From: Burkholderiales bacterium
GTDB taxonomy: Bacteria; Pseudomonadota; Gammaproteobacteria; Burkholderiales; Burkholderiaceae_C
Direction of reading: 5' to 3'
Length of the DNA: 64,000 nt
Assembly: GCA_016191995.1 (NCBI GenBank)
Contig: JACPVA010000023.1
Location: forward strand, 1 to 64,000
The notes below the pieces were generated by a model. The model was not told the origin of the DNA and made no database searches. It saw nothing but the letters and a program-made list of their open reading frames with translations. The position numbers and the translations under genes were made by a program. Shown here piece by piece: positions 568 to 33,035 of this stretch. Each line of letters starts with the position of its first letter. The first letter of the stretch is position 1.

Positions 568-3342
568 ATGAACGCCACGACCGAAACGACCGCAACGACC
601 GGCCAGACCGACACGACCACGAGCCGCTCCCGCCGCGTCCCGACCTACTGCTACCAGTGCGTCGCCGGGCCTGATCTGCTGACGGTCAAGGTCGAGAACG
701 GCGTCGCCACCGAGGTCGAGCCCAACTTCTGCGCCGCCGAGGTCCACCCCGGCGGCGGCAAGGTTTGCGTCAAGGCCTTCGGGCTGATCCAGAAGACCTA
801 CAACCCGAACCGGGTGCTGGCGCCGATGAAGCGCACCAACCCGAAGAAGGGCCGCGACGAGGACCCGGGCTTCGTCGAGATCTCGTGGGACGAGGCGATG
901 TCCGCGGTCGCCGACAAGCTCAACGCGATCCGCGCCACCGGGCTGCTCGACGCGTCGGGTTATCCGCGTGTGGCGGCGAGCTTCGGCGGCGGCGGCACGC
1001 CGCAGTTCTACATGGGCACCTTCCCGGCCTTCCTCGCCGCCTGGGGGCCGGTCGACATGGGGTTCGGATCCGGCCAGGGTGTCAAGTGCTACCACTCGGA
1101 GCACCTGTACGGCGAGCTGTGGCACCGCGCCTTCATCGTCGCCGCCGACACGCCGAGCTGCAACTACCTGATCTCCTGCGGCAACAACATCGAGGCCGCC
1201 GGCGGCGTGGTCGGCGTCTGGCGGCACTCGAGGGCGCGCATCCGCGGCATGAAGCGGGTGCAGGTCGAGCCGCACCTGTCGATCACCGGCGCCTGCTCGG
1301 CGCAGTGGGTGCCGATCCGGCCCAAGACCGACGCCGCGTTCCTGTACGCGCTGATCCACGTCATGCTGCACGAGGCGGCGCGCGACAAGCTCGACCTGCC
1401 GCACCTGGCGCGGCACACCAACTCGCCCTACCTCGTCGGCCCGCACGGCTACTACCTGCGCGACCGCGCGACGCGCAAGCCGCTGGTCTGGGACGAGGCC
1501 AGCGGCCGCGCGGCGACGCACGATGCGCCCGCCATCCGCGAGGCGCTGAGCGCCAGCGTGCAGGTCGACGCGGTCGAGATCGGCGCCGACGACGAGCTGC
1601 TGGCCGACGGCATGCTGGCGGGCCAGACCGCATTCGACAAGCTGGTCGCGCACATGGCGCCGTACTCGCCCGAATGGGCCGCGGGCATCTGCGACGTGCC
1701 GGCGGCGGCGATGCGCAAGATCGCCAACGAGTACCTGGACCACGCCTGCGTCGGCCAGACGGTCGAGATCAACGGCAAGACGATGCCGTACCGGCCGGTC
1801 GCCGTGACGCTGGGCAAGACCGTCAACAACGGCTGGGGCGGCTACGAATGCTGCTGGGCGCGCACGCTGCTTGCGACGCTGGTCGGCGCGCTCGAGGTGC
1901 CCGGCGGGACGATCGGCACCACGGTGCGGCTTGTGCGGCCGATGGCCGGGCGCCACGAAAGCGTCAGGCCGGGCCCCGACGGCTTCATGGACTACCCGTT
2001 CAACCCGACGTCCAAGGAGGGCTGGTCGGCGCGGCCGAATATCCGCAACGCCTACAAGACGATGGTGCCGCTGACCGGCAACAACGCCTGGGCACAGGCG
2101 CTGGGGCCGACGCACTTCTCGTGGATGTTCCTCGACGAGACGCCCAAGGGCCTGCCCAAGGTCGAGCCGCCCGACGTCTGGTTCGTCTACCGCACCAACC
2201 CGGCGATCTCGTTCTGGGACACGCCCGGCATCGGCGACAAGATCGCGCGCTTCCCGTTCGTCGTCGCCTTCGCCTACACGCGCGACGAGAGCAACCACTA
2301 CGCCGACATCCTGCTGCCCGACGCGACCGACCTCGAGGGCCTGCAGCTGCTGCGGCTGGCGGCGACCAAGTACCAGGAGCAGTTCTGGGACCACGAGGGC
2401 TTCGCGCTGCGCCAGCCGGCGGTGGCCACGCGCGGCCAGGCGCGCGACTTCAGCGATATCTGCACCGAGCTGGCGCAGCGCTGCGGCCTGCTCGAGAAAT
2501 ACAACGCGGCGATCAACCGTGGCACCTGCGGCGTGCCGCTGAAGACCGAGTACGGCGACTTCACGCTCGACCCGGCGGTGCCGCACACGCGCGACGAGAT
2601 CTGGGACGCGGCGTGCAAGTCCGCCAGCGCCGAGCTGAGCGACGGCGCCGAGGTGCTGGGGCTGGACTGGTGGAAGGAGCACGGCTTCAAGACGCGACCC
2701 TTCCCGCGCGACCAGTGGTACCTCTACCCGACGGTGGTCGAGCGCGGGCTGCGCTTCGAGATGCCGTACCAGGAGCGCATCAAGCGCGTCGGCGAGGAGC
2801 TCGGCCGCCGGCTGCACGAGTCGGGCATGGACTGGTGGGACAAGCAGCTCGCCGAGTACCAGCCGCTGCCGCCGTACAAGGACTTCCCCGGGCTGTGGGA
2901 GCACAGCCTCGTGTCGCTCGGCGGCAGGCCGGCGGACTATCCGTTCTGGCTCGTCACCGCGCGCAGCATGCAGTATGCGTGGGGCGGCAACGTCGGCGTG
3001 CAGATGATCCACGAGGTCGCCGGCAACGTCGCCGGCCACGGCGGCATCGTGATGAACCCGGCCGCGGCCGAGCGGCTCGGCGTCGAGGAGGGCGACCTGG
3101 TCGAGATCGCGACGCCGCGGCGCAGCACGCACGGCCACGTCGTGCTGCGCCAGGGCATCCGCCCCGACACGCTGCTGCTGGTCGGCCAGTTCGACCACTG
3201 GGTGACGCCGCTGGCGAAGGACTTCGGCGTGCCGAGCCTGAACAAGCTGGCCGAGATGTCGCTGGACCTGACCGACGCCACCGGGTCGGGGTCGGACCTG
3301 GTACGTGTCAAGGTCAGCAAGGCTGCCGGGAGACTGGCATGA
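568..3342 (+). CDS. padB: Phenylacetyl-CoA:acceptor oxidoreductase, molybdopterin catalytic subunit PadB
   Basis: A 924-residue DMSO-reductase-superfamily protein. The N-terminus has the cysteine arrangement for a [4Fe-4S] cluster (YCYQC, NFC, KVCVKA), followed by molybdopterin-binding regions including FGGGGTPQ, GSGQGVKCYHSEH and the C-terminal dinucleotide-binding domain (TARSMQYAWGGN, AGHGGIVMNP). It resembles PadB, which oxidises the alpha-carbon of phenylacetyl-CoA to phenylglyoxylate in Thauera and Azoarcus. The Fe-S and membrane-anchor genes follow directly with ATGA overlaps, forming a typical catalytic/Fe-S/anchor trio. An upstream in-frame ATG at 535 would add 11 residues; neither start has a good ribosome site. 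No clear Tat signal is visible, in line with cytoplasmic action on a CoA ester. Other members of the superfamily act on different substrates, but the adjacent phenylacetate-CoA ligase supports this call. Confidence 0.85.
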   Translation: MNATTETTATTGQTDTTTSRSRRVPTYCYQCVAGPDLLTVKVENGVATEVEPNFCAAEVHPGGGKVCVKAFGLIQKTYNPNRVLAPMKRTNPKKGRDEDPGFVEISWDEAMSAVADKLNAIRATGLLDASGYPRVAASFGGGGTPQFYMGTFPAFLAAWGPVDMGFGSGQGVKCYHSEHLYGELWHRAFIVAADTPSCNYLISCGNNIEAAGGVVGVWRHSRARIRGMKRVQVEPHLSITGACSAQWVPIRPKTDAAFLYALIHVMLHEAARDKLDLPHLARHTNSPYLVGPHGYYLRDRATRKPLVWDEASGRAATHDAPAIREALSASVQVDAVEIGADDELLADGMLAGQTAFDKLVAHMAPYSPEWAAGICDVPAAAMRKIANEYLDHACVGQTVEINGKTMPYRPVAVTLGKTVNNGWGGYECCWARTLLATLVGALEVPGGTIGTTVRLVRPMAGRHESVRPGPDGFMDYPFNPTSKEGWSARPNIRNAYKTMVPLTGNNAWAQALGPTHFSWMFLDETPKGLPKVEPPDVWFVYRTNPAISFWDTPGIGDKIARFPFVVAFAYTRDESNHYADILLPDATDLEGLQLLRLAATKYQEQFWDHEGFALRQPAVATRGQARDFSDICTELAQRCGLLEKYNAAINRGTCGVPLKTEYGDFTLDPAVPHTRDEIWDAACKSASAELSDGAEVLGLDWWKEHGFKTRPFPRDQWYLYPTVVERGLRFEMPYQERIKRVGEELGRRLHESGMDWWDKQLAEYQPLPPYKDFPGLWEHSLVSLGGRPADYPFWLVTARSMQYAWGGNVGVQMIHEVAGNVAGHGGIVMNPAAAERLGVEEGDLVEIATPRRSTHGHVVLRQGIRPDTLLLVGQFDHWVTPLAKDFGVPSLNKLAEMSLDLTDATGSGSDLVRVKVSKAAGRLA

Positions 3343-4010
3343 CGCGGTGGACGATGGTCGCCGACCTGCGGCGCTGCGTCGGCTGCCAGACCTGCACCGC
3401 CGCGTGCAAGCACGCCAACGCGACGCCGCCGGGCGTGCAGTGGCGGCGCGTGCTCGACATGGAGGTCGGCAGCTTCCCCGACGTGCAGCGCGTCTTCATC
3501 CCGGTCGGCTGCCAGCACTGCGAGGACCCGCCTTGCATGCACGTGTGCCCGAGCACGGCGACCAGGAAGCGCCCCGACGGCATCGTCACGATCGACTACG
3601 ACATCTGCATCGGCTGCTCGTACTGCGCCGTCGCCTGCCCCTACCAGGCGCGCTACAAGACCGAGCGCGCCAGCTTCGCCTACGGCAGCGCGAGCGAGCA
3701 CGAGCAGGCGCGCTTCGACGAGGGGCGGCTCGGCGTGGCGACGAAGTGCACCTTCTGCGTCGACCGCATCGACGCCGGGCTCGCCAAGGGGCTGAAGCCG
3801 GGTGTCGACCCCGAGGCCACGCCGGCCTGCGTCAACGCCTGCATCGCCGAGGCACTGGCCTTCGGCGATATCGAGGATCCCGCGAGCAACGTCTCGCAGC
3901 TGGTGGCCGAGAACCGTCACTTCCGCATGCACGAGGAGCTCGGCACCGGCCCGAACTTCTACTACCTGTGGGACCGCGCCGACGGCGGCGATGGCGAGGG
4001 GGAATCATGA
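3339..4010 (+). CDS. padC: Phenylacetyl-CoA:acceptor oxidoreductase, ferredoxin-type Fe-S subunit PadC
   Basis: A 223-residue DmsB/NrfC-type electron-transfer subunit. Four cysteine clusters are visible: CVGCQTCTAAC near the N-terminus, CQHCEDPPCMHVC around residue 60, CIGCSYCAVACP around 90, and a last group made of CTFC and CVNAC, giving ligands for four [4Fe-4S] clusters. It would carry electrons from the molybdenum site of PadB to the membrane subunit. The start overlaps the padB stop (ATGA) and the end overlaps padD, so translation is coupled. Function follows from family and position. Confidence 0.85.
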   Translation: MTRWTMVADLRRCVGCQTCTAACKHANATPPGVQWRRVLDMEVGSFPDVQRVFIPVGCQHCEDPPCMHVCPSTATRKRPDGIVTIDYDICIGCSYCAVACPYQARYKTERASFAYGSASEHEQARFDEGRLGVATKCTFCVDRIDAGLAKGLKPGVDPEATPACVNACIAEALAFGDIEDPASNVSQLVAENRHFRMHEELGTGPNFYYLWDRADGGDGEGES

Positions 4011-4825
4011 GCTACGGCCCCAAGCCCTGGCACCAGACCTCGTGGGACGCGCGCGCGGCGGCCAACTTCATGGCCGGCGGCGCCGGCAGCGGGCTGATCG
4101 TCGCCACCGCGCTCGGCGGCGGGCCGCGCTGGGCCTTCCTGCTCGGCGCGGCGATCGTCGGCATCGGGCTGCTTTGCGTGTGGGCCGAGATCGGCCGCCC
4201 GTGGCGCGCGATCAATGTCTTCTTCCACCCGCAGACCTCGTGGATGACGCGCGAGGCGATCGTCGCGCCCGGCCTGATGCTGATGGCGCTGGCGGCGGCT
4301 TTCGGCATCGCGGGGGCGGACTGGCTGGCGGCGCTGGCGGCGCTCGGCTTCGTCTACTGCCAGGGCCGCATCCTGTGCGCGTCGCGCGGCATCCCGGCCT
4401 GGCGCGAGCCGACGATCGTGCCGCTGATCGTCGCCACCGGGCTGGCCGAGGGATTCGGGCTGTGGATGCTGCTGGCCGGGCGCGCGGCATCGCTCGTCGC
4501 GTGGATCGTGCTGGCCGCCGCGCTGCTGGCGCGCCAGTGGCTGTGGAGCCGCTGGCGCGCGCGCATCCAGGCCGCGCCGAAGGCGCTCGCCGCGGCCGAC
4601 GCCGCGGGGCGCTGGTTCCAGGCCGGCACGCTGCTGGCGCTGGCGCTGGCCGTGGCGGCGCTGCTGGCGCCGCTGCCGCCGGCGGCGTCATGGGGCTTGC
4701 AGATCGCCGCCGGGCTGGCGGCGCTGCTGGCCGGGCAGTGGTTCAAGTTCACGCTCGTCACGCAAGCGGCCTTCAACCAGGGATTCGCGCTGCCGCACCT
4801 GCCGGTGCGCGGCGTGCGGCGCTGA
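4007..4825 (+). CDS. padD: Phenylacetyl-CoA:acceptor oxidoreductase, membrane anchor subunit PadD (DmsC/NrfD type)
   Basis: A 272-residue, strongly hydrophobic protein with about eight predicted membrane helices, of the DmsC/NrfD quinone-interacting anchor type. The conserved N-terminal block WAEIGRPWRAINVFFHPQTS and the following SWMTRE are typical of these anchors. It should dock PadBC to the inner face of the cytoplasmic membrane and pass electrons to quinone. The ATG overlaps the padC stop. The gene is followed by a 37-base gap with GGAGACA before the ligase gene. Confidence 0.8.
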   Translation: MSYGPKPWHQTSWDARAAANFMAGGAGSGLIVATALGGGPRWAFLLGAAIVGIGLLCVWAEIGRPWRAINVFFHPQTSWMTREAIVAPGLMLMALAAAFGIAGADWLAALAALGFVYCQGRILCASRGIPAWREPTIVPLIVATGLAEGFGLWMLLAGRAASLVAWIVLAAALLARQWLWSRWRARIQAAPKALAAADAAGRWFQAGTLLALALAVAALLAPLPPAASWGLQIAAGLAALLAGQWFKFTLVTQAAFNQGFALPHLPVRGVRR

Positions 4826-6758: not shown

Positions 6759-7229
6759 ATGACCCATCGACTGCTCCAGATCACCGTCAACGGCCGGCGC
6801 CAGAAGGTCGCCGCGCGCGACAGCGCGACGCTGCTGGAGGTGCTGCGCGACTCGCTGCAGCTCACCGGCACCAAGCAGGGCTGCGACGGCGGCGAGTGCG
6901 GGGCCTGCACCGTGCTCGTCGACGGCGAGCCGCGGCTGGCGTGCATCACGCTGGCCGCCAGCGTCGAGGCGCGCCATATCGAGACGATCGAGGCGCTCGC
7001 GCAGCAGGGCAGGCTGTCGGCGCTGCAGCGCGCGTTCCACGAGAAGCTCGGCGCGCAGTGCGGCTTCTGCACCCCGGGGATGGTGATGGCCGCCGAAGCG
7101 CTGCTCAGGCGCGAGCCGCACCCGACCGAGACGCAGATCCGCGAGGCGCTTTCGGGCAATCTTTGCCGCTGCACCGGCTACGTCAAGATCGTCGAGTCCG
7201 TGCAGACTGCCGCGGAGGCCAAGCCATGA
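6759..7229 (+). CDS. hcrC: 4-Hydroxybenzoyl-CoA reductase, gamma subunit (2x[2Fe-2S])
   Basis: A 156-residue small subunit of the xanthine-oxidase family. The plant-type [2Fe-2S] motif ([12 protein letters not shown], then a distal C near LACITL) lies around residues 43-67 and the second, helical [2Fe-2S] motif is CGFCTPGM followed by NLCRCTGY. It passes electrons between FAD and the molybdenum centre. ATG 6759 with upstream CAGGAG is preferred over the longer open frame. The stop overlaps the hcrA start. Very close in size to HcrC of Thauera aromatica (about 160 residues). Confidence 0.88.
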
Positions 7230-9652
7230 AATTCGAGCAAGTCCACCTGCCGCACGAGCCCGCGCCGCCGACGCATTCGGTCGGCCAGCGCCGGCCGCTC
7301 ATCGACGGCGTCGAGAAGGTCAGCGGGCGCGCGCGCTATACCGCCGACCTGCCCTTCCCCGGCGCGCTGGTCGGCCGCATCGGCCGCAGCGCGGTCGCGC
7401 ACGGCATCATCCGCCGCATCGACGCCACGCGCGCGCTGGCGATCCCCGGCGTGCGCGCCGTCGTCACGGGGCAGGATTTCTCGGCCCCCTACGGCGTGAT
7501 CCCGATCGCGCAGAATGAATGGCCGCTGGCGCGCGACCGCGTGCGCTACCGCGGCGAGCCGCTGTTCGCCGTCGCCGCCGACGATATCGACACCGCCGAG
7601 GCGGCGCTGGCCGCGGTCGAGGTCGAGATCGAGGCGCTGCCGGCCTACTTCGACGCCGCGTCCGCGCGCGCCGAGGATGCCGTGCGGCTGCACGACAACA
7701 AGCCGGGCAACGTCGAGCGCAGCGTCGAGCAGGATTTCGGCGATGTCGACGCTGGCTTCGCTGCGTCCGACCTCGTGATGGAGCGCGTCTTCGACTGCGC
7801 CGAGGTTTCGCACGGCCAGATCGAGCTCAACGCCACCGTCGCGCAATGGGACCCCGAGCGCCAGCATCTGACGCTGCACTCGGTGACGCAGGTGCCCTAC
7901 TACCTGCACCTGATGCTGGCGCAGACGCTGGGGCTGGACAGCGCGGCGATCCGCGTCGTCAAGCCCTTCGTCGGCGGCGGCTTCGGCCACCGGGTCGAGC
8001 CGCTCAACTTCGAGATGGTCGCCGGCTGTCTCGCGCGTGCCGCCTGCGGCACGGTCAAGCTCGAGCTGACGCGCGAGGACTCCTTCCTGACGCACCGCGC
8101 GCGCCCGGCCACGCACACGCGGCTGAAGATCGGCATGAGCAAGGACGGCCGCATCAACGCCGTCGACGCCGAGGTCGTCCAGCGCGGCGGCGCCTACGCC
8201 GGCTATGGCCTGGTGACGATCCTGTACGCGGGCGCGCTGCTGCACGCGCTGTACATGATCGGCGCGGTGCGCTACCGCGGCTGGCGCGTCTACGCCAACC
8301 TGCCGCCCTGCGGCGCGATGCGCGGCCACGGCGCGGTCAACGTCCGCATCGCCTTCGAGGCGATGCTCGACGAGATGGCCGACGCACTCGGGATCGACCC
8401 GTTCGCGCTGCGCCGCGCCAACCTGATCACGCCGCCCTACCGCACGCTGAACGACCTGCAGGTCAACTCCTACGGCCTGCCGCAATGCCTGGATGCGGTC
8501 GAGCGCGCCAGCGGCTGGAAGGAGCGCCGCGGCAAGCTCGGCGCCGACGGCCCGATCCGCCGCGGCCTCGGCATGGCCTGCTCGCACTATGTCTCGGGGT
8601 CGGCCAAACCGGTGCACTGGAGCGGCGAGCCGCACGCGGTGATCAACCTCAAGCTCGACTTCGATGGTGGCATCACGATCCTGACCGGCGCAAGCGATAT
8701 CGGCCAGGGATCGTCGACGCTGCTGACGCAGATCGTCGCCGAGGTGCTGCTGCTGCCGATGGCGCGCATCCGCGTCGTCGCCACCGACAGCGCGCTGACG
8801 CCGAAGGACAACGGCTCGTACTCGTCGCGCGTGTCGTTCATGGTCGGCAACGCCGCGCTGCGTGCGGCCGAGGCGATGAAGCGCGTGCTCGTCGAGGCCT
8901 CGGCGCGGCGGCTGAACGTCGCGCCCGAGCAGGTCGAATGGCTCGGCGAATGCTGCCGTGTCGTCGGCGGCGAGACCGACGGCGCGCAGCTCGACTTCGC
9001 GCAGGTCGTGCAGGCGGCGCTGGTCGAGTCCGGCACGCTGACCGTCAAGGGCGCCTGGTCGACGCCGCCGGAGACGCAGGGCGGCAAGTTCCGCGGCGCC
9101 GCGGTCGGCTCGACCGCCGGCTTCTCGTATGCGGCGCAGGTGGCCGAGGTCGAGGTCGACGAGGATACCGGCATCGTTCGCGTCGTCGGCATCTGGGTCG
9201 CGCACGATTGCGGGCGCGCGATCAACCCGCTCGCGGTCGAGGGGCAGGTTCAGGGCGCGATCTGGATGGGGCTCGGGCAGGCGCTGTCGGAGGAAAACCG
9301 CTACCACGAGGGGCTGCCGCTGGGGCCCAACTTCCTCGACTACCGCATGGTCAACGTGCTCGACACGCCGCCGATCGACGTCACGCTGGTCGAGAGCATC
9401 GACCCGCTGGGCCCGTTCGGCGCCAAGGAGGCGAGCGAAGGCGGTCTGCACAGCGTGCCGCCGGCGATCGCCGCCGCGGTCTACGACGCGGTCGGCGTGC
9501 GCGTGCACGAGACGCCGATCACCCAGGACCGGCTGCTGGAGGCGATCCACCAGCGCCGGCGCGACGAAAAACTGGCTGCCGCGCGCGCGGCGCGCTCCGG
9601 CACGGGCAAGGCCGTGCCGGCGAGCGCGTCCGCCGCCGAGGCGAGGAGCTGA
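7226..9652 (+). CDS. hcrA: 4-Hydroxybenzoyl-CoA reductase, alpha subunit (molybdenum-binding)
   Basis: An 808-residue large subunit of the xanthine dehydrogenase family, with the N-terminal [19 protein letters not shown] block, the [12 protein letters not shown] loop near residue 250, [19 protein letters not shown] and the C-terminal [17 protein letters not shown] that carries the conserved active-site glutamate. 4-Hydroxybenzoyl-CoA reductase removes the ring hydroxyl to give benzoyl-CoA, using electrons from reduced ferredoxin. The assignment over other xanthine-oxidase homologues rests on the HcrB partner with its extra cluster loop and on the neighbouring phenol pathway. It is somewhat longer than the Thauera protein (about 770 residues); the extra residues are at the alanine-rich C-terminus. 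Confidence 0.87.
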
Positions 9653-9656
9653 TCCG

Positions 9657-10637
9657 ATGCGTCCGATCGAGGATATCCAGCTCGTCCGTCCGGCGACGCT
9701 GACCGACGCCGCGCTGCTGCTGGCCGAGGAGGGCTCGCGGCTGGTCGCCGGCGGTACCGACTTGCTGCCCAATATGCGCCGCGGCATCGCCGACCCGGCG
9801 GTGCTGATCGATCTCACCGGCGTCGCCGGCATCGGCGCGATCGAGCCGCACCACGGCCAGTGGCGCTTCGGCGCCGGCGTCACGCTGGCGACGATCGAGC
9901 GCCACGCGCAGATCGCGCGCGAGCTGCCCGCGCTCGCGCAGGCGGCCGGCGCGGTCGCCGGGCCGGCACACCGCAGCGCCGCGACGCTGGCCGGCAACCT
10001 GTGCCAGGACACGCGCTGCGTCTACTACAACCAGAGCGAGTGGTGGCGCCGCAGCAATGGCTGGTGCCTCAAGCTGAAGGGCGACACCTGCCATGTCGCG
10101 CCGCACGGCAAGCGCTGCCACGCCGCCTACCAGGGCGATGTCGCCGCCGCGCTGCTGGCCTACGGCGCCGAGGTCGAGATCGTCGGCGTCGAGAAGGTCT
10201 TCCGCCGCCCGCTCGCCGAGCTGTACCACGACGACGGCGCGGCGCACCTGACGCTGGGCGCGAACGAGGTCGTCGCCGCGGTGCATGTTCCGGCCGGCCA
10301 GGCCGGCCGCGTCAGCGGATTCCGCAAGGCGCGCACGCGCAGCGGGATGGACTTCCCGCTCGCCAGCGTCGCGCTCGCGCTGCGCCTGGAGGGAGGTGTG
10401 CTCGCCGAGCTCTCGGTCGGCATCAGCGGCACCAACTCGCACCCGTTGAAGCTCGACGGCACCTACGCGCTGCTCGGACGCCCGGTCGACGACGCGGCGC
10501 TGGCGACGCTGGGCAAGCTGGTCGCCAAGCAGGTCACGCCGATGCGCAGCACCTTCACCGCGTCCAACCATCGCCGGCTCGTCGCGTCGGCGACCGCGCA
10601 GCGGCTGCTGCGCGAGCTCGCCGCCGGCGCGGCATGA
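9657..10637 (+). CDS. hcrB: 4-Hydroxybenzoyl-CoA reductase, beta subunit (FAD and extra [4Fe-4S])
   Basis: A 326-residue FAD subunit (CO-dehydrogenase-medium type) with the FAD motifs LVAGGTDLLPNMRRG (around residue 30) and a TLAGNLCQDTRC loop (around 110). It carries the insertion that distinguishes HcrB from other family members: a cysteine-rich stretch of about 40 residues from CQDTRC through WCLK, TCHV and RCHA, which in the Thauera enzyme binds a [4Fe-4S] cluster and lets electrons flow in the unusual direction, from ferredoxin to substrate. This insertion is the best evidence that the operon encodes 4-hydroxybenzoyl-CoA reductase. Confidence 0.88.
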   Translation: MRPIEDIQLVRPATLTDAALLLAEEGSRLVAGGTDLLPNMRRGIADPAVLIDLTGVAGIGAIEPHHGQWRFGAGVTLATIERHAQIARELPALAQAAGAVAGPAHRSAATLAGNLCQDTRCVYYNQSEWWRRSNGWCLKLKGDTCHVAPHGKRCHAAYQGDVAAALLAYGAEVEIVGVEKVFRRPLAELYHDDGAAHLTLGANEVVAAVHVPAGQAGRVSGFRKARTRSGMDFPLASVALALRLEGGVLAELSVGISGTNSHPLKLDGTYALLGRPVDDAALATLGKLVAKQVTPMRSTFTASNHRRLVASATAQRLLRELAAGAA

Positions 10638-13049: not shown

Positions 13050-13102
13050 GCGCCGGCGCGCCGCGCGCCTGCGACGCCCCACGAGTTCGAAGGAGACCGA
13101 AG

Positions 13103-15241
13103 ATGATGCTGTGCCCGAAGTGCCACCAGCCGCTGGCCGAGCAGGACGAAGGGCTGTATATCTGCTGCGCCGGCGCGCCGATGCAGTGGCAGTGCGGCGA
13201 ATGCGGCAAGATCAGCGAGGGTTTTGCGTTCCCGTACGGCGCCTGCCCGCAGTGCGGCGGCCGGCTCGCGCTGCGCGAGGATGCGGCGCAGACCGCCGAT
13301 GCGGCGGCGATGGCGGCGGTGCGCACCGCGTTCGAGATCGAGCTCGGCGGGCGTGCGTTCTACCAGCGCGCCGCGGCCGACTGCGACGACGCCGAGCTGC
13401 GCGCGCTGTTCGGCCGCTTCGCGGTGATGGAAGGCGAGCATATGGAGACGCTGTCGCGGCGCTACCACGTCGACATGCCCGCACCTTCGGCCGAGTTCAG
13501 GCTGCAGACCGCGGCCGTCTATGCCGATGCCAGGCCGCCGGCGGACGCCGCCGACCTGTTCAAGCTCGCGATCGCGCTGGAGAAGCGCGCCGTGGCCTTC
13601 TTCACCGAGCGCGCCGCGGCGATCCCCGCTGGCGCCCCCGAGCACCGGCTGTACGACGAGCTCGCCGCCGAGGAGCGCGAGCATGCGCAGATGCTGACGG
13701 CCGAGTATGCGCGCTGGCGCGACCGCTTGCCGGGCTTGTATGGCGGCACGGCACCGACGCTGGCCGCGCACCTGGCCGCGCCCGGCAGTGCGGCGGCGAT
13801 GAATGCCGCCGAGCTGCTGCTGGCCGGCCACGACGACGAATCGACCGCGCTGGAGTGCGGCGACGAGCGCATCAGCTACGGCCAGCTGCGCGACCGCGCC
13901 GCACGTGCCGCCGCGGTCTGGCACGCGCGCGGGCTGCGCCCGGGCGACCGCGTCGCGATCAAGCTGCCCGACGGCATCGACTGGGTCGTCTGCTGGCTCG
14001 GGACGATCTGGGCCGGCGGTGTGGCGGTCGGCGTCAACCCGCGCATCCCGGCGCCCGAATACCAGTACATCCTCGAGGAGGCCGGATTCAACGTCATCGT
14101 CGCCGAGTCGGCCGACGATACGCCGGCACCGTGGAACGAGCGCGTGATCACGCTCGCCGAGGGCCGCAGCGCCGTCGCGGCGGCCAAGCCGGTGCCGCCG
14201 GTGCTGCTCGCCGACGACAGCCCGATGTTCTGGGTCCACTCCTCGGGCACCTCGGGGCGGCCGAAGGCGGTCGTGCACGCGCAGCGCTGCGTGCGCGAGG
14301 TCGGCCGCATCTCGGCCGAGCGCATGGGCATGCGCGCCGGCGACCGGCTGCTCGCCAGCTCAAAGCTCTTCTTCGCCTACCCGCTGACCAACCTGCTGCT
14401 CGCCGGGCTGCGCAACGGCGCGACGCTGATCCTGGATCCGACCTGGCCGACGCCGCAGACCGTCGCGCAGGCGGTCGAGCGCACCCGGCCCGACATGCTG
14501 TTCAGCGTGCCGTCGCTGTACCGCCACCTGCTGCACGAAGGGCTGGCGCCGGCCATCGCCGCCGCCGGCGTGCGCTGCTGCGTGTCGGCCGGCGAGGCGC
14601 TGCCGGCCACGCTGCGCCAGGCCTGGCACGACGCCACCGGGCTGCCGATGATCAACGGCTACGGCGCCTCCGAGGTGCTGGTGCTGGTGATGACCGAGGT
14701 CGACGGCGACGACGGGCTGCAGGTCTCGCCCGGCACCGAGGTCGCGCCGCTCGACCCCGAGGCCGCCGACGCCGGCGGCCCGACCCGGCTGCTGATCGCC
14801 AGCCCGATGCAGGCGCTGGGCTACCTGGACCGCCCGGCGGCGCAGGCCGACAGCTTCCGTGAAGGGCGCTTCTGCCCGGCCGACCTCTTCGTCCGCACCG
14901 CCGGCGGCGGCTGGCGCTTCGGCGGGCGCGAGGATTCGCTGGTCAAGATCAGCGGGCGCTGGGTCAACCTGGTCGAGCTGGAGGAGAAGCTCGCCGCCGG
15001 CGTATCCGGGCTGCGCGAGGCCGCGGTCGTCTGCGCGCCCGACGCCGACGGCGTCGACGCGGTCGGCCTCTTCTACGCCGGCAGCGACGACGAGGAAGCG
15101 CGGCGCGAGCTCGAGGCGCGCATCGCCGCGCTGCCCAAATACCAGCGCCCGGCCTGGGTCAAGCCGATCGACGCGCTGCCGCGCACGCCGACCGGCAAGC
15201 TGCTGCGGCGAATGCTGGTGGAGCGGCTGCGCGGGGGTTGA
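13103..15241 (+). CDS. Fusion of zinc-ribbon/rubrerythrin domain with 4-hydroxybenzoate (aryl)-CoA ligase
   Basis: One uninterrupted 712-codon frame encodes two unrelated domains. Residues 1-55 contain paired cysteines (CPKC, CC, CGEC, CPQC) of a rubredoxin/zinc-ribbon type. Residues 70-215 are ferritin-like, with two E...ExxH diiron half-sites (FEIELGG with EGEH; IALEKRA with EREH). Residues 233-712 are an AMP-forming ligase: SSGTSGRPKAVVH, INGYGASEVLVLV, the hinge region KISGRWVNLVELEE and PRTPTGKLLRR. Start ATG 13103 has a strong GAAGGAGA site. No ribosome site precedes the internal ATG at 13799, so separate translation is unlikely. Next to hcrCAB the ligase should form 4-hydroxybenzoyl-CoA; benzoate or 3-hydroxybenzoate are alternatives. 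Confidence 0.85.
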   Translation: MMLCPKCHQPLAEQDEGLYICCAGAPMQWQCGECGKISEGFAFPYGACPQCGGRLALREDAAQTADAAAMAAVRTAFEIELGGRAFYQRAAADCDDAELRALFGRFAVMEGEHMETLSRRYHVDMPAPSAEFRLQTAAVYADARPPADAADLFKLAIALEKRAVAFFTERAAAIPAGAPEHRLYDELAAEEREHAQMLTAEYARWRDRLPGLYGGTAPTLAAHLAAPGSAAAMNAAELLLAGHDDESTALECGDERISYGQLRDRAARAAAVWHARGLRPGDRVAIKLPDGIDWVVCWLGTIWAGGVAVGVNPRIPAPEYQYILEEAGFNVIVAESADDTPAPWNERVITLAEGRSAVAAAKPVPPVLLADDSPMFWVHSSGTSGRPKAVVHAQRCVREVGRISAERMGMRAGDRLLASSKLFFAYPLTNLLLAGLRNGATLILDPTWPTPQTVAQAVERTRPDMLFSVPSLYRHLLHEGLAPAIAAAGVRCCVSAGEALPATLRQAWHDATGLPMINGYGASEVLVLVMTEVDGDDGLQVSPGTEVAPLDPEAADAGGPTRLLIASPMQALGYLDRPAAQADSFREGRFCPADLFVRTAGGGWRFGGREDSLVKISGRWVNLVELEEKLAAGVSGLREAAVVCAPDADGVDAVGLFYAGSDDEEARRELEARIAALPKYQRPAWVKPIDALPRTPTGKLLRRMLVERLRGG

Positions 15242-15793: not shown

Positions 15794-15797
<4 letters not shown>
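15324..15797 (-). CDS. Flavin split-barrel protein, YhbP/pyridoxamine-phosphate-oxidase-like
   Basis: A 157-residue protein that starts with GTG inside the stop of the upstream regulator gene (GTGA overlap). The N-terminus ([21 protein letters not shown]) and the middle ([25 protein letters not shown]) match the split-barrel FMN-binding family that includes YhbP. No enzymatic role is known from the sequence. Coupling to the sigma54 activator is odd; it may bind flavin or heme. The C-terminus is cysteine-bearing (VGCGGAN). Confidence 0.7.
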
Positions 15798-17533
<1,736 letters not shown>

Positions 17534-17941: not shown

Positions 17942-19777
17942 GTGAAATTTCCCGTTCCGCACGACCTGACTGCGCAGAAGATCCCCGGCACCGAGGGCTG
18001 GGAGCGTATGTACCCGTACCAGTACCAGTTCGTCACCGACGACCCGGTGCGCAACCAGTACGAGAAGGACACCTTCTGGTTCTACGACGGGCTGCACTAC
18101 CCCGAGCCGCTGTACCCCTTCGACACGATCTGGGACGAGGCCTGGTACCTGGCGCTGAGCCAGTACAACAACCGCATCTTCATGGTCCCGCCGGTGCGCG
18201 GCGTCGACCACCGGATGATCAACGGCTATGTCTACATCTCGCCGGTGCCGGTGAAGGACGGCAACGAGATCGGAAGTCGGGTGCCGCACTTCATGGAGCG
18301 CGCCGGCCATTACTACAAGAACTGGGACGCGCTGGAAGCCAAGTGGAAGGTCAAGATGGAGGCGACGATCCGCGATCTCGAGAAGCTCGAGATCCCGCGC
18401 CTGCCGGACATGGAGGCCATGAGCGTCGTCACCGACGCGCTCGGCGAGTCCAAGGGCTTCCACCTTCTGAAGGCCTACGACGACCTGATCAATCTCGGGA
18501 TCAAGTGCTGGCAGTACCACTTCGAGTTCCTGAACCTGGGCTACGCGGCCTACGTGTTCTTCCTCGACTTCGTGCAGAAGCAGTTCCCGAGCATCCCGCC
18601 GCAGCGCGTGACGCAGATGATCTCGGGCATCGACGTCATCATGTACCAGCCCGACGAGGAGCTGAAGAAGCTCGCGCGGCGCGCGGTCGAGCTCGGCGTC
18701 GACGGCCTCGTCAAGTCCAGCGGCGAGTGGACCGCGGTCGAGTCCGCGCTCAAGGGCGACCCGAAGGGCACCGAGTGGCTGATGTCGCTGAGCCTGGCCA
18801 AGGAGCCCTGGTTCAACGTCTCCACCGGCACCGGCTGGTTCCACCACGACCGCTCGTGGAACGACCAGATGAACGTGCCGCTGGTCGGCATCCAGACCTA
18901 TATCGACAAGATCCGCGCCGGGGTGTCGATCGAGCGCCCGACCGAGAAGGTGCGCGCCGAGCGCGACCGCATCGTCACCGAGTACCGCGACCTGATCACC
19001 GACGAGGCTGCGCGCAAGCAGTTCGACGAGCTGCTCGGCTGCGCCAAGACCGTCTTCCCGTATGTCGAGAACCACCTCTTCTACGTCGAGCACTGGTTCC
19101 ACTCGGTGTTCTGGAACAAGATGCGCGAGGTCGCCGCGCTCCTGAAGGAGCACGGCATCCTGAAGGACGCCGACGACGTCTGGCTGCTGCGGCGCGACGA
19201 GATCAAGCTCGCGCTGTGGGACGTCGTCACCGCCTGGGCCACCGGTGTCACGCCGCGCGGCACGACGACGTGGCCGCCGGAGGTCGAGTGGCGCAAGGGG
19301 GTGATGGAGAAGTTCCGCGCCTGGTCCCCGCCGCCGGCGATCGGCACCGCGCCGGAGGTGATCCAGGAGCCGTTCACGATCGTGCTGTGGGGGGTGACGA
19401 ACAAGTCGCTCGCCGACTGGGCCTCGGTGCAGGAGGTCGGCGACCCCGAGAAGGTCAACGAGCTCAAGGGTTTTGCCGGCAGCCCCGGCATCGTCGAGGG
19501 CAAGGCGCGCGTGTGCCGCACGGTGGCCGAGGTCGGCGAGCTGAAGGAAGGCGAGATCCTGGTCGCGCCGACGACCTCGCCGTCGTGGGCGCCGGCGTTT
19601 GCCAAGATCGGCGCCTGCGTGACCGACGTCGGCGGCGTGATGAGCCACGCCGCGATCGTCTGCCGCGAGTACGGCATGCCGGCGGTGGTCGGCACCGGGC
19701 ATGCGACCAAGATCATCCGCACCGGCATGATGCTGCGCGTCGACGGCTCGTCGGGCGCGGTGTCGATCGCGCGCTGA
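17942..19777 (+). CDS. ppsA: Phenylphosphate synthase subunit A (PEP-synthase C-terminal-type, catalytic histidine)
   Basis: A 611-residue protein matching the 70-kDa subunit of phenylphosphate synthase. The C-terminal swivelling phosphohistidine domain contains GGVMSHAAIVCREYG; by count the histidine is residue 569, the same number reported for the phosphorylated histidine of the Thauera enzyme. It transfers the beta-phosphate of ATP, via phosphohistidine, to phenol to make phenylphosphate. It is the first gene after the -24/-12 promoter, starts with GTG after AAGGAGACGCAA, and is four bases from ppsB. The paired homology and gene order make this a firm call. Confidence 0.93.
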   Translation: MKFPVPHDLTAQKIPGTEGWERMYPYQYQFVTDDPVRNQYEKDTFWFYDGLHYPEPLYPFDTIWDEAWYLALSQYNNRIFMVPPVRGVDHRMINGYVYISPVPVKDGNEIGSRVPHFMERAGHYYKNWDALEAKWKVKMEATIRDLEKLEIPRLPDMEAMSVVTDALGESKGFHLLKAYDDLINLGIKCWQYHFEFLNLGYAAYVFFLDFVQKQFPSIPPQRVTQMISGIDVIMYQPDEELKKLARRAVELGVDGLVKSSGEWTAVESALKGDPKGTEWLMSLSLAKEPWFNVSTGTGWFHHDRSWNDQMNVPLVGIQTYIDKIRAGVSIERPTEKVRAERDRIVTEYRDLITDEAARKQFDELLGCAKTVFPYVENHLFYVEHWFHSVFWNKMREVAALLKEHGILKDADDVWLLRRDEIKLALWDVVTAWATGVTPRGTTTWPPEVEWRKGVMEKFRAWSPPPAIGTAPEVIQEPFTIVLWGVTNKSLADWASVQEVGDPEKVNELKGFAGSPGIVEGKARVCRTVAEVGELKEGEILVAPTTSPSWAPAFAKIGACVTDVGGVMSHAAIVCREYGMPAVVGTGHATKIIRTGMMLRVDGSSGAVSIAR

Positions 19778-19781
19778 CGCG

Positions 19782-20942
<1,161 letters not shown>

Positions 20943-21847: not shown

Positions 21848-23044
21848 ATGGACTTGCGCAGCTATATCGATCAATGTGCCGCCGCGGGCGAGCTCAAGCG
21901 CGTCGGCGCGCCGGTCGACTGGAATCTGGAAATCTCGCATATCTCCAAGCTCGTCGAGGAGCGCAAGGGCCCGGCGCTGCTGTTCGAGAACGTGCGCGGC
22001 TACGACACCCCGGTCTTCACCGGCGCCTTCGCCACCACCAAGCGGCTGGCGATCATGCTCGGGCTGCCGCACGGCAATACGCTGTGCGAATCGGCACAGG
22101 CCTGGATGAAGAAGAGCATCTCGGCCGAGGGCCTGATCAAGGCCAGGGAGGTCAAGGACGGGCCGGTGCTGGCCAACGTCGTCGAGGGCGACAAGGTCGA
22201 CCTCAACATGTTCCCGGTGCCGCGCTTCTTCCCGCTCGACGGCGGGCGCTATATCGGCACCACGGTCTTCGTCGTGCTGCGCGACCCGGAGACCGGCGAG
22301 ACCAACCTCGGCACCTACCGCATGCAGATGCTCGATGGCAAGACCTGCGGCGTGCAGATCCTGCCCGGCAAGCGCGGCGAGCGCATCATGAAGAAGTACG
22401 CCAAGATGGGCAAGAAGATGCCCGCCGCGGCGGTGATCGGCTGCGACCCGCTGCTGTTCATGGCCGGCACGCTGATGCACAAGGGTGCGAACGACTTCGA
22501 CATCACCGGCACCGTGCGCGGCCAGCAAGCCGAGTACCTGATGGCGCCGCTGACCGGGCTGCCGGTTCCCGCCGGTGCCGAGATCGTCCTCGAGGGCGAG
22601 ATCGACCCGACGAACTTCCGCCCCGAGGGCCCGTTCGCCGAGTACACCGGCTACTACACCGACGAGCTGCACCACCCGATCCCGAAGCCGGCGTTGGAGG
22701 TCAAGCAGATCCTGCACCGCGACAAGCCGATCCTGTGGGCCACCGGCCAGGGCCGGCCGGTGACCGACGTCCACATGCTGCTGTCGTTCACCCGCACCGC
22801 GACGCTGTGGACCGAGCTCGAGAAGATGAAGATCCCGGGCATCCAGAATGTCTGCGTGCTGGCCGAGTCGGCCGGCCGCTTCTGGGCCGTGGTCTCGGTC
22901 AAGCAGGCCTACCCCGGACATTCGCGCCAGGTCGCCGACGCCGTGATCGCGAGCAATACCGGCAGCTACGGCATCAAGGGCGTGATCACGGTCGACGAGG
23001 ACATCGCCGCCGACGACCTGCAGCGTGTCGTCTGGGCGCTGTAG
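21848..23044 (+). CDS. ppcB: Phenylphosphate carboxylase beta-type subunit (UbiD family), cut short by an in-frame TAG
   Basis: 398 residues of a UbiD-type prenyl-FMN decarboxylase/carboxylase. Active-site regions are present: NLGTYRMQMLDGKTCG (prenyl-FMN/substrate arginine area) and PEGPFAEYTGYY with the conserved acidic residues. The frame ends at TAG 23042-23044 just after WAL, inside the conserved WA-x-x-x-R-x-DP segment; the same frame then continues without a shift to 23266 with normal UbiD C-terminal sequence. Full length would be 472 residues (about 53 kDa), matching the known beta subunit. So the protein is truncated by 74 codons, read through, or the base is a sequencing error. Position between ppsC and the HAD gene fits ppcB. 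Confidence 0.85.
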   Translation: MDLRSYIDQCAAAGELKRVGAPVDWNLEISHISKLVEERKGPALLFENVRGYDTPVFTGAFATTKRLAIMLGLPHGNTLCESAQAWMKKSISAEGLIKAREVKDGPVLANVVEGDKVDLNMFPVPRFFPLDGGRYIGTTVFVVLRDPETGETNLGTYRMQMLDGKTCGVQILPGKRGERIMKKYAKMGKKMPAAAVIGCDPLLFMAGTLMHKGANDFDITGTVRGQQAEYLMAPLTGLPVPAGAEIVLEGEIDPTNFRPEGPFAEYTGYYTDELHHPIPKPALEVKQILHRDKPILWATGQGRPVTDVHMLLSFTRTATLWTELEKMKIPGIQNVCVLAESAGRFWAVVSVKQAYPGHSRQVADAVIASNTGSYGIKGVITVDEDIAADDLQRVVWAL

Positions 23045-23881: not shown

Positions 23882-24391
23882 ATGGACAAGGCCAAGGACG
23901 TGAAGCTCGTCATCCTCGACGTCGACGGCGTCATGACCGACGGGCGCATCGTCATCGACGACAACGGGCTCGAGCAGCGCAACTTCGACATCAAGGACGG
24001 TTTCGGCGTCGTCGCGCTGCAGATGACCGGCGTCGAGGTCGCGATCATCACGTCGAAGAAGTCGGGCTCGGTGCGCCACCGCGCCGAGGAGCTCAAGATC
24101 AAGCGCTTCCACGAGGGCATCCGCAAGAAGACCGAGCCCTACGAGCAGATCCTCGCCGAGATGGGCATCGGCGACGCCCAGGTCGCCTATGTCGGCGACG
24201 ACCTCGTCGACCTGGCGATGATGAAGCGCGTCGGGCTGCCGATCGCGGTCGCCGACGCGGTCGACGAGGTGCGCGAGGCCGCCGCCTTCGTCACCCGCGC
24301 ACGCGGTGGCCACGGCGCCGTGCGCGAGGCGGCCGAGATGATCCTCAAGGCGCAGGGCAAGTGGGAGGCGATCCTGGCCAAGATCGCCTGA
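23882..24391 (+). CDS. ppcC: Phenylphosphate carboxylase gamma subunit (HAD phosphatase, KdsC-like)
   Basis: A 169-residue HAD-superfamily protein of 18 kDa: motif I LVILDVDGVMTDG (nucleophile Asp), motif II IITSKKSG, and motif IV VAYVGDDLVDLAMM. It resembles KDO-8-phosphate phosphatase and matches the 18-kDa subunit of phenylphosphate carboxylase, which is thought to handle the phosphate group while the UbiD subunits carboxylate at C4. Start ATG 23882 follows GCAGGAGTC. Naming of gamma and delta follows subunit sizes in the literature as I remember them. Confidence 0.85.
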   Translation: MDKAKDVKLVILDVDGVMTDGRIVIDDNGLEQRNFDIKDGFGVVALQMTGVEVAIITSKKSGSVRHRAEELKIKRFHEGIRKKTEPYEQILAEMGIGDAQVAYVGDDLVDLAMMKRVGLPIAVADAVDEVREAAAFVTRARGGHGAVREAAEMILKAQGKWEAILAKIA

Positions 24392-24542: not shown

Positions 24543-25994
24543 GTGGCAGCCCCCCGAAGCAACCGTGAATTCGTCGAAGCCTGCATCGCCTCCGGCGACG
24601 CCGTGCGCATCGCGCAGGAGGTCGACTGGGAGAACGAGGCCGGCGCGATCGTGCGCCGCGCCTGCGAGCTCTCAGCCCCCGCGCCCTTCATCGAGAAGAT
24701 CAAGGACTACCCCGGCTTCCGCTATTTCGGCGCGCCGCTGTCGACCTACCGCCGGATGGCGATCTCGATGGGGCTGGACCCGGACACCCCGCTGCCCGAG
24801 CTCGGCCGCGTCTACGTCGAGCGCACCAACGGCGCGCCGGTGGCGCCGGTGATCGTCGGCCGCGACCAGGCACCGTGCAAGGAGAATATCCTGCGCGGCT
24901 CGGAAGTCGACCTGTGCCGGCTGCCGGTGCCGCTGGTGCACGACGGCGACGGCGGCCGCTATGTCGGCACCTGGCACGCCGTCGTCACCAAGCACCCGGT
25001 GCGCGGCGACGTCAACTGGGGCATGTACCGGCAGATGATGTTCGACAGCCGCACGATGTCGGGCGCGGTATTCCCGTTCTCCGACCTCGGCAAGGCGCTG
25101 AACGACTACTACCTGCCGCGCGGCGAGACCTGCCCGTTCGCCACCGCGATCGGTCTGTCGCCGCTGGCGGCGATGGCCGCCTGCGCGCCGTCGCCGATCC
25201 CCGAGCCCGAGCTGGTCGGCATGCTCGCCGGCGAGCCGGCGCGGCTGGTCAAGTGCGAGACCAACGACCTGGAAGTGCCGGCCGACGCCGAGATCATCAT
25301 CGAAGGCGAGATCTGCCCCGACTACAAGGTCGAGGAAGGCCCGTTCGGCGAGTACACCGGCTACCGCACCAGCCCGCGCGATTTCCGCGTCACCTTCCGC
25401 GTCAACTGCATCACCTACCGCAACAACGCGACGATGACCATCTCCAACATGGGCGTGCCGCAGGACGAGGGGCAGCTGCTGCGCTCGTTCTCGCTCGGCC
25501 TGGAGCTGGAGAAGCTGCTCAAGAGCCAGGGCATCCCGGTCACCGGCGTCTACATGCATCCGCGGTCGACGCACCACATGATGATCGTCGGCGTCAAGCC
25601 GACCTACGCCGGCGTCGCGCAGCAGATCGGCCAGCTCGCGTTCGGCTCCAAGCTCGGCCCCTGGTTCCACATGGTGATGGTCGTCGACGACCAGATCGAC
25701 ATCTACAACTGGGACGAGGTCTACCACGCCTTCTGCACCCGCTGCCACCCCGACCGCGGCATCCACATCTACCGCAATTCGCCCGGCACGCCGCTGTACC
25801 CGTTCGCGACCCCGCACGAGCGGCGCTGGTCGATCGGCTCCAAGGTCGTGTTCGACTGCCTGTGGCCGGTCGACTGGGACAAGATCAACGATGTGCCGAC
25901 GGTGGTCTCGTTCCGCAACGTCTACCCGAAGGAGGTGCAGGAAAAGGTCTTGTCCAACTGGACCAACTACGGCTACCCGCCGGCTGCGCGCTGA
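24543..25994 (+). CDS. ppcA: Phenylphosphate carboxylase alpha-type subunit (UbiD family)
   Basis: A 483-residue (54-kDa) intact UbiD homologue beginning with GTG after ACAGGAGCACCCC. Conserved: GGRYVGTWHAVVTKHP, NWGMYRQMMFD, and EGPFGEYTGYRTS with the catalytic acidic residues. Two UbiD-type subunits (alpha and beta), the HAD subunit and the 10-kDa subunit make up phenylphosphate carboxylase, which forms 4-hydroxybenzoate from phenylphosphate and CO2. Its size and gene order fit PpcA. The 151-base gap upstream is larger than elsewhere in the operon and holds no obvious gene. Confidence 0.87.
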   Translation: MAAPRSNREFVEACIASGDAVRIAQEVDWENEAGAIVRRACELSAPAPFIEKIKDYPGFRYFGAPLSTYRRMAISMGLDPDTPLPELGRVYVERTNGAPVAPVIVGRDQAPCKENILRGSEVDLCRLPVPLVHDGDGGRYVGTWHAVVTKHPVRGDVNWGMYRQMMFDSRTMSGAVFPFSDLGKALNDYYLPRGETCPFATAIGLSPLAAMAACAPSPIPEPELVGMLAGEPARLVKCETNDLEVPADAEIIIEGEICPDYKVEEGPFGEYTGYRTSPRDFRVTFRVNCITYRNNATMTISNMGVPQDEGQLLRSFSLGLELEKLLKSQGIPVTGVYMHPRSTHHMMIVGVKPTYAGVAQQIGQLAFGSKLGPWFHMVMVVDDQIDIYNWDEVYHAFCTRCHPDRGIHIYRNSPGTPLYPFATPHERRWSIGSKVVFDCLWPVDWDKINDVPTVVSFRNVYPKEVQEKVLSNWTNYGYPPAAR

Positions 25995-31584: not shown

Positions 31585-31627
31585 GCCCCCCTCGCGCCCG
31601 CGGCACGAACCCTAGGAGAATGCAAGC

Positions 31628-32377: not shown

Positions 32378-32416
32378 CCCCCTCCCACCCCACCCCGCCG
32401 CTGCAGGAGACCGACG

Positions 32417-32878
32417 ATGTCGCTGGACATGAAGCTGCCCGAATTTCTCGCGCACGCGATCGCGCTCGAGCACGAGGCCGCCGAGCGCTACCTCGAGCTC
32501 GCCGACATGATGGAGTCCTACCGCAACGACGAGGTGGCCTCGACCTTCCGCGACATGGTGCGCTACTCGCGGCTGCACCACGACTCGATCGTCGAGCGCG
32601 CCAAGGGCATCGCGCTGCCGACGATCCGCTCGTGGCAGTACCGCTGGCGCAACCCGCCCGAGGTCGGCGGCGAGGAGGCCTTCGACCCCAAGCTCGATAC
32701 CTACGAGGCGCTGCGCTATGCGCGCGAGAACGAGCTGCGCGCCAAGGAGTTCTACGCCCAGGTCGGCGCCGAGGCGGGCGACGCCGAGGTGCGCAGCCTG
32801 GCCGAGGAATTCGCCGCCGAGGAGGCCGAGCACGTGCAGGCGCTGGACGACTGGCTGGCGCGCACGCCGCGGCCCTAG
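32417..32878 (+). CDS. Ferritin-like (rubrerythrin-type) diiron protein
   Basis: A 153-residue all-helical protein with two E...ExxH half-sites: [17 protein letters not shown] near residue 18 and, after a linker, [12 protein letters not shown] and [16 protein letters not shown]. It has no zinc-ribbon tail. The fold suits peroxide or oxygen detoxification or diiron chemistry. It lies within the CoA-thioester gene group, as does the rubrerythrin domain fused to the ligase at 13103. That suggests diiron domains are systematically attached to these pathways. Confidence 0.8.
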
Positions 32879-32900
32879 CGCTACGCGCGCGGCGGCACCC

Positions 32901-32969: not shown

Positions 32970-33035
32970 GACGGCAGCGCACGCGCCGGCCCGGCGCCCC
33001 CCAGGATCGATACGCAACACGAAAGGAACCCCACG

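Follow-up and report, generated by a model that had tools for sequence, protein, structure and literature searches.

Why should an aryl-CoA ligase, an enzyme that is not a redox catalyst, carry a rubrerythrin-type module at its N-terminus? This question is raised by a gene located downstream of the genes for 4-hydroxybenzoyl-CoA reductase in a Burkholderiales bacterium (GenBank assembly GCA_016191995.1, contig JACPVA010000023.1). The window analyzed here is the stretch of 64,000 nucleotides that comprises positions 1 to 64,000 of this contig. Rubrerythrin-like iron modules often handle oxygen or peroxide. A guard or sensor within the entry enzyme of the pathway, if this is what the module is, would bear on a practical question in the breakdown of phenol and lignin monomers, namely how the oxygen-sensitive ring reductases of facultative bacteria survive oxic pulses.

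One reading frame encodes the module and the ligase

The fusion gene is a single frame of 712 codons that runs from ATG to stop without interruption and encodes a protein with a calculated mass of 76.3 kDa (Table 1). A first-pass annotation had described a continuous frame joining a rubrerythrin-like module to a full ligase, and indeed the protein matches the Pfam families Rubrerythrin (PF02915, 7.3e-07, 30.1 bits versus a cut-off of 22.8; 8e-08 for the module by itself) and AMP-binding (PF00501, 1.9e-57).

Such fusions are not confined to the window. A GTDB scan yielded 214 module loci, and classification by frame of the best 80 of these 214 resulted in 36 ligase-fused, 24 Nfn-fused (i.e., joined to an Nfn-like flavoprotein) and 20 free modules. 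The names of 31 of the 36 ligase fusions among the best 80 are at the level of Burkholderiales, while the other five labels are vague (L052, L068, L071), Gammaproteobacteria (L059) or Anaerolineales (L066). After removal of nine duplicates and of the half genes L048 and L049, which lie at contig ends and are probably one fusion of genome G021, the best 80 of the 214 named loci and those from further genomes amount to 97 distinct modules, of which 44 are fused to a ligase and 25 to an Nfn-like protein, while 28 are free. Two of the 44, L061 and L069, are broken at contig ends, leaving 42 complete fusions, which are in frame by class definition. The sample of the family comprised 399 genomes, 18 of which contain the module and 13 the ligase fusion (the window's genome included). 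In a sample of the phylum (398 genomes) the module was found in one genome only beyond that of the window, in frame with an Nfn-like protein. Spread by plasmids was considered and rejected: 2048 plasmid records match, none of them over 80% of the protein.

A frameshift or missing stop codon at about position 13795, or a separate ligase start at ATG 13799, had been named as events that might simulate a fusion. Neither survives closer inspection, as a frameshift, a missing stop and an internal start are excluded by the open frame, by linkers without start codons and by start scoring. Two of the 42 complete distinct in-frame fusions are encoded in single-contig genomes (G329, 100% complete; G077, 94%). 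The internal methionine that corresponds to ATG 13799 is present in 7 of the 42, and 12 lack any ATG, GTG or TTG between residues 207 and 239. Shine-Dalgarno sequences of at least four nucleotides precede the N-terminal start in 39 of 42 cases and linker starts in five of 42; the match before ATG 13799 is just three nucleotides long. No separate relative of the ligase (>33% identity, >100 amino acids) was found in the 44 loci with a module that is not fused to a ligase, at least one of which (L114) is cut by a contig end.

The host assembly is a draft of 199 contigs, and the fusion might be regarded as an assembly artefact or else as a neutral leftover. The first of these is refuted by the 42 complete distinct copies including those in single-contig genomes. 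Furthermore, both halves are under like purifying selection: in 12 chosen close pairs, some of which share a member, the module yields dN/dS values of 0.09-0.31 and the ligase values of 0.08-0.26. Among the 42 fusions, mean entropy is 2.12 bits for the linker, 0.98 for the diiron part, 0.90 for the N-terminal part of the ligase and 1.09 for its other part, and invariant sites amount to 35 of 138 in the diiron part and to 85 of 374 and 20 of 95 in the ligase. An artefact or a neutral relic is thus a most improbable explanation: the fusion in Burkholderiales is real and conserved.

Table 1. Positions of the fusion gene, its parts and the genes discussed in the text (numbering of the window).
Feature	Position	Strand	Evidence or remark
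hcrC-like [2Fe-2S] subunit gene	6759..7229	+	Pfam Fer2_2, Fer2; precedes hcrA
hcrA, 4-hydroxybenzoyl-CoA reductase alpha	7226..9652	+	TIGR03194, 1157 bits, above cut-off (994.55)
hcrB, 4-hydroxybenzoyl-CoA reductase beta	9657..10637	+	TIGR03195, 393 bits (9711-10634), slightly below cut-off (404.55)
Nfn-like flavoprotein, corresponding to positions 1-775 of PRK12775	10710..13049	+	NF009413 and NF009414 scores
Shine-Dalgarno AAGGAG, 7 nt before ATG 13103	13090..13095	+	Sequence
Fusion gene, 712 aa (Cys4 knuckle, ferritin-like diiron module, AMP-forming aryl-CoA ligase)	13103..15241	+	
Cys4 knuckle, residues 29-55 (C31, C34, C48, C51), rubredoxin-like or zinc ribbon	13187..13267	+	
Ferritin-like diiron module, residues 69-206 (expected ligands E80, E110, H113, E160, E191, H194)	13307..13720	+	
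Linker, residues 207-236	13721..13810	+	Variable, low-confidence in model
Aryl-CoA ligase part, residues ~237-712	13811..15238	+	
MobR-type sigma54 regulator	15794..17512	-	NF041906, 592.8 bits, cut-off 999 (scored as 15794-17530)
Two phenylphosphate-synthase-like subunit genes	17942-19777; 19782-20942	+	PEP-utilising, PEP-synthase-like models
Phenylphosphate carboxylase beta, interrupted	21848-23044	+	TIGR02724, 830.8 bits, over cut-off
Phenylphosphate carboxylase delta	23882-24391	+	TIGR02726, 300.0 bits, over cut-off
Phenylphosphate carboxylase alpha	24603-25994	+	TIGR02723, 968.3 bits, over cut-off
Free ferritin-like protein, second CoA cluster	32417..32878	+	Pfam Rubrerythrin PF02915, 2.7e-09

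Genetic environment and likely substrate of the ligase

The position of the fusion after hcrCAB, already recognized in the first-pass annotation, is confirmed by hcrC-like, hcrA and hcrB genes upstream, and the free ferritin-like gene that it had placed in a second CoA cluster is likewise present (Table 1). Further downstream of the fusion, the window contains genes for phenylphosphate carboxylase and two phenylphosphate-synthase-like genes, which we take to be those for PpsA and PpsB; no model so named matched. The ligase part itself scores below the cut-offs of two models: its best NCBIfam model is that of the 3-hydroxybenzoate-CoA ligase HbdA (NF053567, 305 bits versus a cut-off of 1000), and the benzoate-CoA ligase family TIGR02262 gives 242 bits (cut-off 375). 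In addition, the benzoate-CoA ligase structure 4eat is matched at 1.4e-48. In Aromatoleum, phenol is converted via phenylphosphate to 4-hydroxybenzoate, which is activated to 4-hydroxybenzoyl-CoA by Hcl2 and then reduced to benzoyl-CoA by HcrABC (PMC10715001). Because hcrCAB, phenylphosphate carboxylase and a MobR-type regulator are encoded nearby and this route is known from Aromatoleum, the fused enzyme is likely the 4-hydroxybenzoate-CoA ligase of anaerobic phenol and 4-hydroxybenzoate breakdown; the step assigned to it at first pass is retained, with gene context as its basis. Ligase pieces from the window's own genome (C47:33402-34949), about 3.5 kb from boxB, match the ligase part only.

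Among the fetched stretches of the 43 other distinct fusion loci, several of which lie on contigs that stop short, hcrA and/or hcrB are present in 25 and a relative of the free ferritin-like gene in 14. Close relatives of MobR are encoded in six of the 43 (L050, L052, L054, L070, L074, L081), with or without phenylphosphate genes; this count excludes matches of 40-48% in L084, which a model match suggests to be general sigma54 regulators. Clustering of neighboring genes suffered from shadow-frame noise that is too great for the method to be used alone. Loci such as L110 and L150 display one full order, i.e., molybdoenzyme subunits, a PaaK-like ligase, hcrCAB, the fusion, ECH, SDR, a free ferritin-like protein and ECH, and the cluster at 30742-35143 of the window looks like the second half of such an order, separated from the first by the phenol genes. 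L150 contains an acyl-CoA dehydrogenase gene in addition, and in other loci an Nfn-like gene lies ahead of the fusion.

The Cys4 knuckle and the diiron bundle

Both ExxH half-sites reported at first pass were found (E110-x-x-H113 and E191-x-x-H194), together with the helix glutamates E80 and E160. These six expected metal ligands and the four cysteines C31, C34, C48 and C51, which lie N-terminal to helix 1 of the bundle, are invariant in all 97 distinct module rows. For E110, H113 and C48 this invariance is partly by construction in the named loci, because they sit within the patterns used for retrieval; the remaining seven positions lie outside the patterns.

The bundle is the better defined of the two parts. 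PF02915 matches all 13 of the A1 module members (E up to 1), and a profile built from 13 modules retrieves solved structures of the COG1633 and similar types (2fzf at 1.5e-07, 2oh3 at 7.8e-07 and 1vjx at 6.8e-04). The AlphaFold2 model places helices at residues 65-93, 97-121, 149-173 and 179-206; its mean pLDDT is 75 for the module, with the knuckle poorly predicted, and 71 for the whole protein, and values fall below 50 at linker residues 211-231. The 50 Foldseek matches listed for the module model are mostly ferritin-like, all with E >0.001, so that none among them reaches E <=0.001. As for the knuckle, the window module matches Zn_ribbon_8 (0.012) and RUBY_RBDX (0.057) below the Pfam cut-offs, and the 13-row profile pairs it weakly with the rubredoxin domain of Desulfovibrio vulgaris rubrerythrin (E 0.051) and equally weakly with zinc proteins such as HypA (E 0.057). 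With matches as weak as these, "rubredoxin-like" is a reading rather than a result.

A knuckle that precedes the bundle is the arrangement of reverse rubrerythrin. Rubrerythrins carry a fifth glutamate (Glu97 of D. vulgaris). The presumed position of this residue is 163, where all 97 rows contain alanine and the glutamate seems to be absent; the register relative to true rubrerythrin was set by hand. Sites with four glutamates and two histidines are also found in oxygenases and bacterioferritins. It is thus conceivable that the Nfn-like reductase feeds the module as a diiron oxygenase, which would oxygenate an aromatic compound or an aryl-CoA by a logic similar to that of BoxB. The ligand set, the adjoining reductase gene and the aryl-CoA product of the very same protein would fit such a function. 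Nevertheless, the nearest sequences and folds among the matches listed are of the COG1633, ferritin and bacterioferritin types, and the neighboring genes belong to an anaerobic route, such that we consider an oxygenase very unlikely.

The module's other home is an Nfn-like flavoprotein

Sequence comparison identifies the gene directly before the fusion as Nfn-like. Its product matches NF009413 (PRK12775) with 1426 bits over positions 1-775 of 1006 and NF009414 with 1000 bits (cut-off 1103), while residues 3-212 of the fusion protein match positions 798-1005 of NF009413 with 272 bits. The cut-off of NF009413 (1895 bits for one protein) is not reached here, as the match is divided over two genes. 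Judged from these sequences, the module was not invented at this locus but corresponds to the C-terminus of a "putative trifunctional" flavoprotein of the Nfn-like kind in other bacteria. The fusion is therefore best described as a re-partnering within one operon, in which a domain that elsewhere belongs to the neighboring protein has become attached to the ligase. While the first-pass interpretation stands with respect to the fusion, its position behind hcr and the step of the ligase, it had missed this neighbor and the module's kinship with it. A review of Nfn proteins distinguishes four patterns and its main text does not contain the words ferritin or rubrerythrin; the longer "pattern C" described there bears NfnA-type domains at the opposite end (PMC6405883). 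The PRK12775 Nfn-ferritin family, for which the models give no established function, gains a testable setting.

The module thus occurs in three states, joined to an Nfn-like protein, joined to a ligase, or free and then mostly adjoining an Nfn gene. Nfn-fused modules (24 named loci among the best 80 of 214) are 53-61% identical to that of the window and stem from Anaeromyxobacter and other Myxococcota, Telmatospirillum, Siculibacillus and Thiocystis. An Nfn-like gene is located within 500 bases of 25 of the 28 free modules and immediately upstream of 22 of the 44 fusions, the window counted; in L057 it lies farther upstream, and L120 is left unassigned in this count.

This association suggests another role, in which the module would chiefly bind the Nfn-like flavoprotein or Hcr and so keep the ligase in a metabolon. 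Consistent with a docking function, 24 of the best 80 of 214 loci encode the module as C-terminal domain of an Nfn-like protein, and most of its free copies adjoin an Nfn-like gene. However, a full-length Nfn-like protein (E 1e-100 or better) was not found in eight of 18 fusion genomes, seven of them without any match and one, G077, with a partial one; some of these eight genomes are incomplete, and G329 is rated 100% complete. All ten metal positions are kept in the seven scored fusions from these genomes (L047, L149, L151, L152, L153 and L120, checked row by row, and L150, which is among the 97 invariant rows; the two halves of the G021 fusion are outside the ligand scoring). That the module is kept where the full-length partner was not found speaks against Nfn docking as its sole role, an objection that concerns Nfn and not Hcr. 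Docking as the main function, to the Nfn-like protein or to Hcr, is distinctly unlikely.

Origin of the joining

A phylogenetic tree calculated for the ligases separates the 42 fused ones from five unfused homologues (80/93; 80% of 200 bootstrap trees). Long unfused branches triggered a warning, and L003 and L170-L173 were left out. With the fused ligases together, one joining is the simplest reading, although the long branches advise caution. The unfused homologues (39-52% identical) were found in eight genomes of other families in the order sample. Six of these eight were searched for the module, which is present elsewhere in two and was not found in four; the five unfused proteins of the tree come from four of the six searched genomes.

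The module tree is less simple. It requires four changes in the fused state as built and three without the contig-cut row L114, and a single clade of fused modules is weakly rejected in an AU test (fused rows plus L114, p 0.0238). Part of the free modules are thus nested within the fused set, due either to later losses of the ligase or to more than one joining. Ramlibacter monticola provides an example: its free module L077 nests among the fused ones, and the same species has a fusion at L084. Ramlibacter lithotrophicus RBP-1 likewise has a fusion. The fusion point directly follows the conserved RW..G..G with which the free module ends; this position fits loss of the stop codon of a module gene ahead of a downstream ligase gene, and the joining probably arose in this way.

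Oxygen and possible functions of the module

Of the 18 fusion genomes, 13 were tested for BcrB and the aerobic BoxB: BcrB scores over its cut-off in 11 of them and BoxB in 12, and both do so in the genome of the window. Since aerobic BoxB is also encoded, the host is probably facultative. BcrB is no marker of the fusion, because it is also over cut-off in all four tested genomes that lack the fusion; BoxB is over cut-off in one of these four.

For bacteria of this kind, we tentatively favor the module as a tethered guard on the aryl-CoA ligase that reduces oxygen and/or peroxide, a function that we infer from the sequences and regard as quite possible, a little short of probable. The module would bind two irons, the knuckle would serve as an Fe(Cys)4 electron relay, and O2 and/or H2O2 would be reduced at the diiron site. 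As it catalyzes no redox reaction, the ligase cannot feed this site, and the Nfn-like neighbor or a ferredoxin would have to; electrons may be delivered from NAD(P)H via the Nfn-like protein where it is present, and by ferredoxin or another carrier elsewhere. The flexible linker would hold the guard to the ligase, so that bacteria alternating between oxic and anoxic life make it in a 1:1 ratio with the entry step and close to the pathway's oxygen-sensitive reductases. There is precedent for such a guard in a hydrogenase-rubrerythrin chimera that reduces H2O2 (PMC11926857). Unfused ligases occur in genomes where the module was not found (four of six), which indicates that a guard would be dispensable.

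Alternatively, the module may gate the ligase, sensing oxygen or peroxide and shutting off this ATP-consuming enzyme when the downstream reductase fails, so that 4-hydroxybenzoate is left to the aerobic route. The enzyme that carries the module likely catalyzes the first step of the branch, the module's ligands are kept where a full-length Nfn-like donor was not found, as would suit sensing, and the frequent presence of both BcrB and BoxB in the fusion genomes tested is in line with a choice between two routes. On the other hand, the linker varies in sequence and in length (17-38 residues in the 42 complete fusions, counted as window residues 206..234) and is modeled with low confidence, which speaks somewhat against tight gating and fits a tether better than a joint that passes on a signal. 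To our knowledge, no ligase gated by a diiron site has been described. Gating by oxygen or redox state is rather unlikely, and the more far-reaching version, in which a borrowed diiron/Cys4 module switches the ligase such that a single protein would pick anaerobic or aerobic aromatic catabolism, is unlikely.

Comparison with known systems

Among the papers listed in literature searches aimed at such a fusion, none was recognizable from its title or the opening of its abstract as an account of it, most subscription journals and all architecture databases lying outside the scope of these searches. PRK12775/NF009413 shares the knuckle-plus-diiron module, which forms the C-terminus of a flavoprotein in that family and the N-terminus of a ligase in the window protein. 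Rubrerythrin and reverse rubrerythrin have the ferritin-like ExxH diiron bundle and the Cys4 knuckle in common with the window module; nevertheless, its similarity to D. vulgaris rubrerythrin is weak and its partner is a non-redox enzyme. The [FeFe] hydrogenase-rubrerythrin chimera CperHydR is also a natural fusion of a rubrerythrin with a metabolic enzyme, for which a role in oxygen stress has been proposed; its partner is a redox enzyme that gives electrons, in contrast to the AMP-forming ligase found here (PMC11926857). With regard to the ligase, Hcl2 of Aromatoleum catalyzes the same step of the route and is likened to the fused enzyme by this step, not by sequence (PMC10715001), and HbdA belongs to the same ligase family, although the window protein stays far below the cut-off of the HbdA model. 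The parts of the protein are of known kinds; the novelty lies in their joining, with a module of rubrerythrin type carried by an AMP-forming ligase outside redox catalysis and retained in many Burkholderiales.

Variation among the fusion loci

At six loci that carry the fusion of the diiron module to the aryl-CoA ligase (L050, L056, L058, L063, L064 and L078), the relatives of the 4-hydroxybenzoyl-CoA reductase subunits HcrA and HcrB are just 54-58% and 46-51% identical, respectively, to those of the window; at the remaining fusion loci, identities are mostly 64-83% (HcrA) and 55-75% (HcrB). HcrA of L091 is partial, with 56% identity. Perhaps a second reductase type adjoins the same fusion at the six loci.

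L066, labeled Anaerolineales, is almost identical to L063 of Aquabacterium, and L098, labeled Chitinophaga pinensis, is placed among betaproteobacterial rows. Both are probably mis-binned contigs. One isolate, Ramlibacter monticola, has a free module adjoining an Nfn-like gene (L077) and, on a different contig, the fusion (L084), with neither hcr nor Nfn genes within the fetched stretch and a nearby gene that matches Cu-nitrite reductase with a score below the cut-off.

Further genes in the window

Relatives of a second, free ferritin-like protein lie within the fetched stretch in 14 of the 43 other distinct fusion loci, and therefore two ferritin-like proteins seem to be part of one gene cluster.

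Features of the window
Feature	Position	Strand
DMSO-reductase-family molybdoenzyme, 4Fe-4S and third genes, before PaaK-like ligase	568-4825	
Phenylphosphate carboxylase beta gene	21848-23044	+
In-frame TAG	23042-23044	
Free ferritin-like protein	32417-32878	

The phenylphosphate carboxylase beta gene is broken by an in-frame TAG after 398 codons (model length 472), beyond which the reading frame continues. A 91% identical relative (L182, genome G005) has no interruption at the matching site; the TAG is either a nonsense change or an assembly error.

The third gene of the molybdoenzyme set has no match in Pfam; the set may resemble phenylacetyl-CoA oxidoreductase PadBCD.
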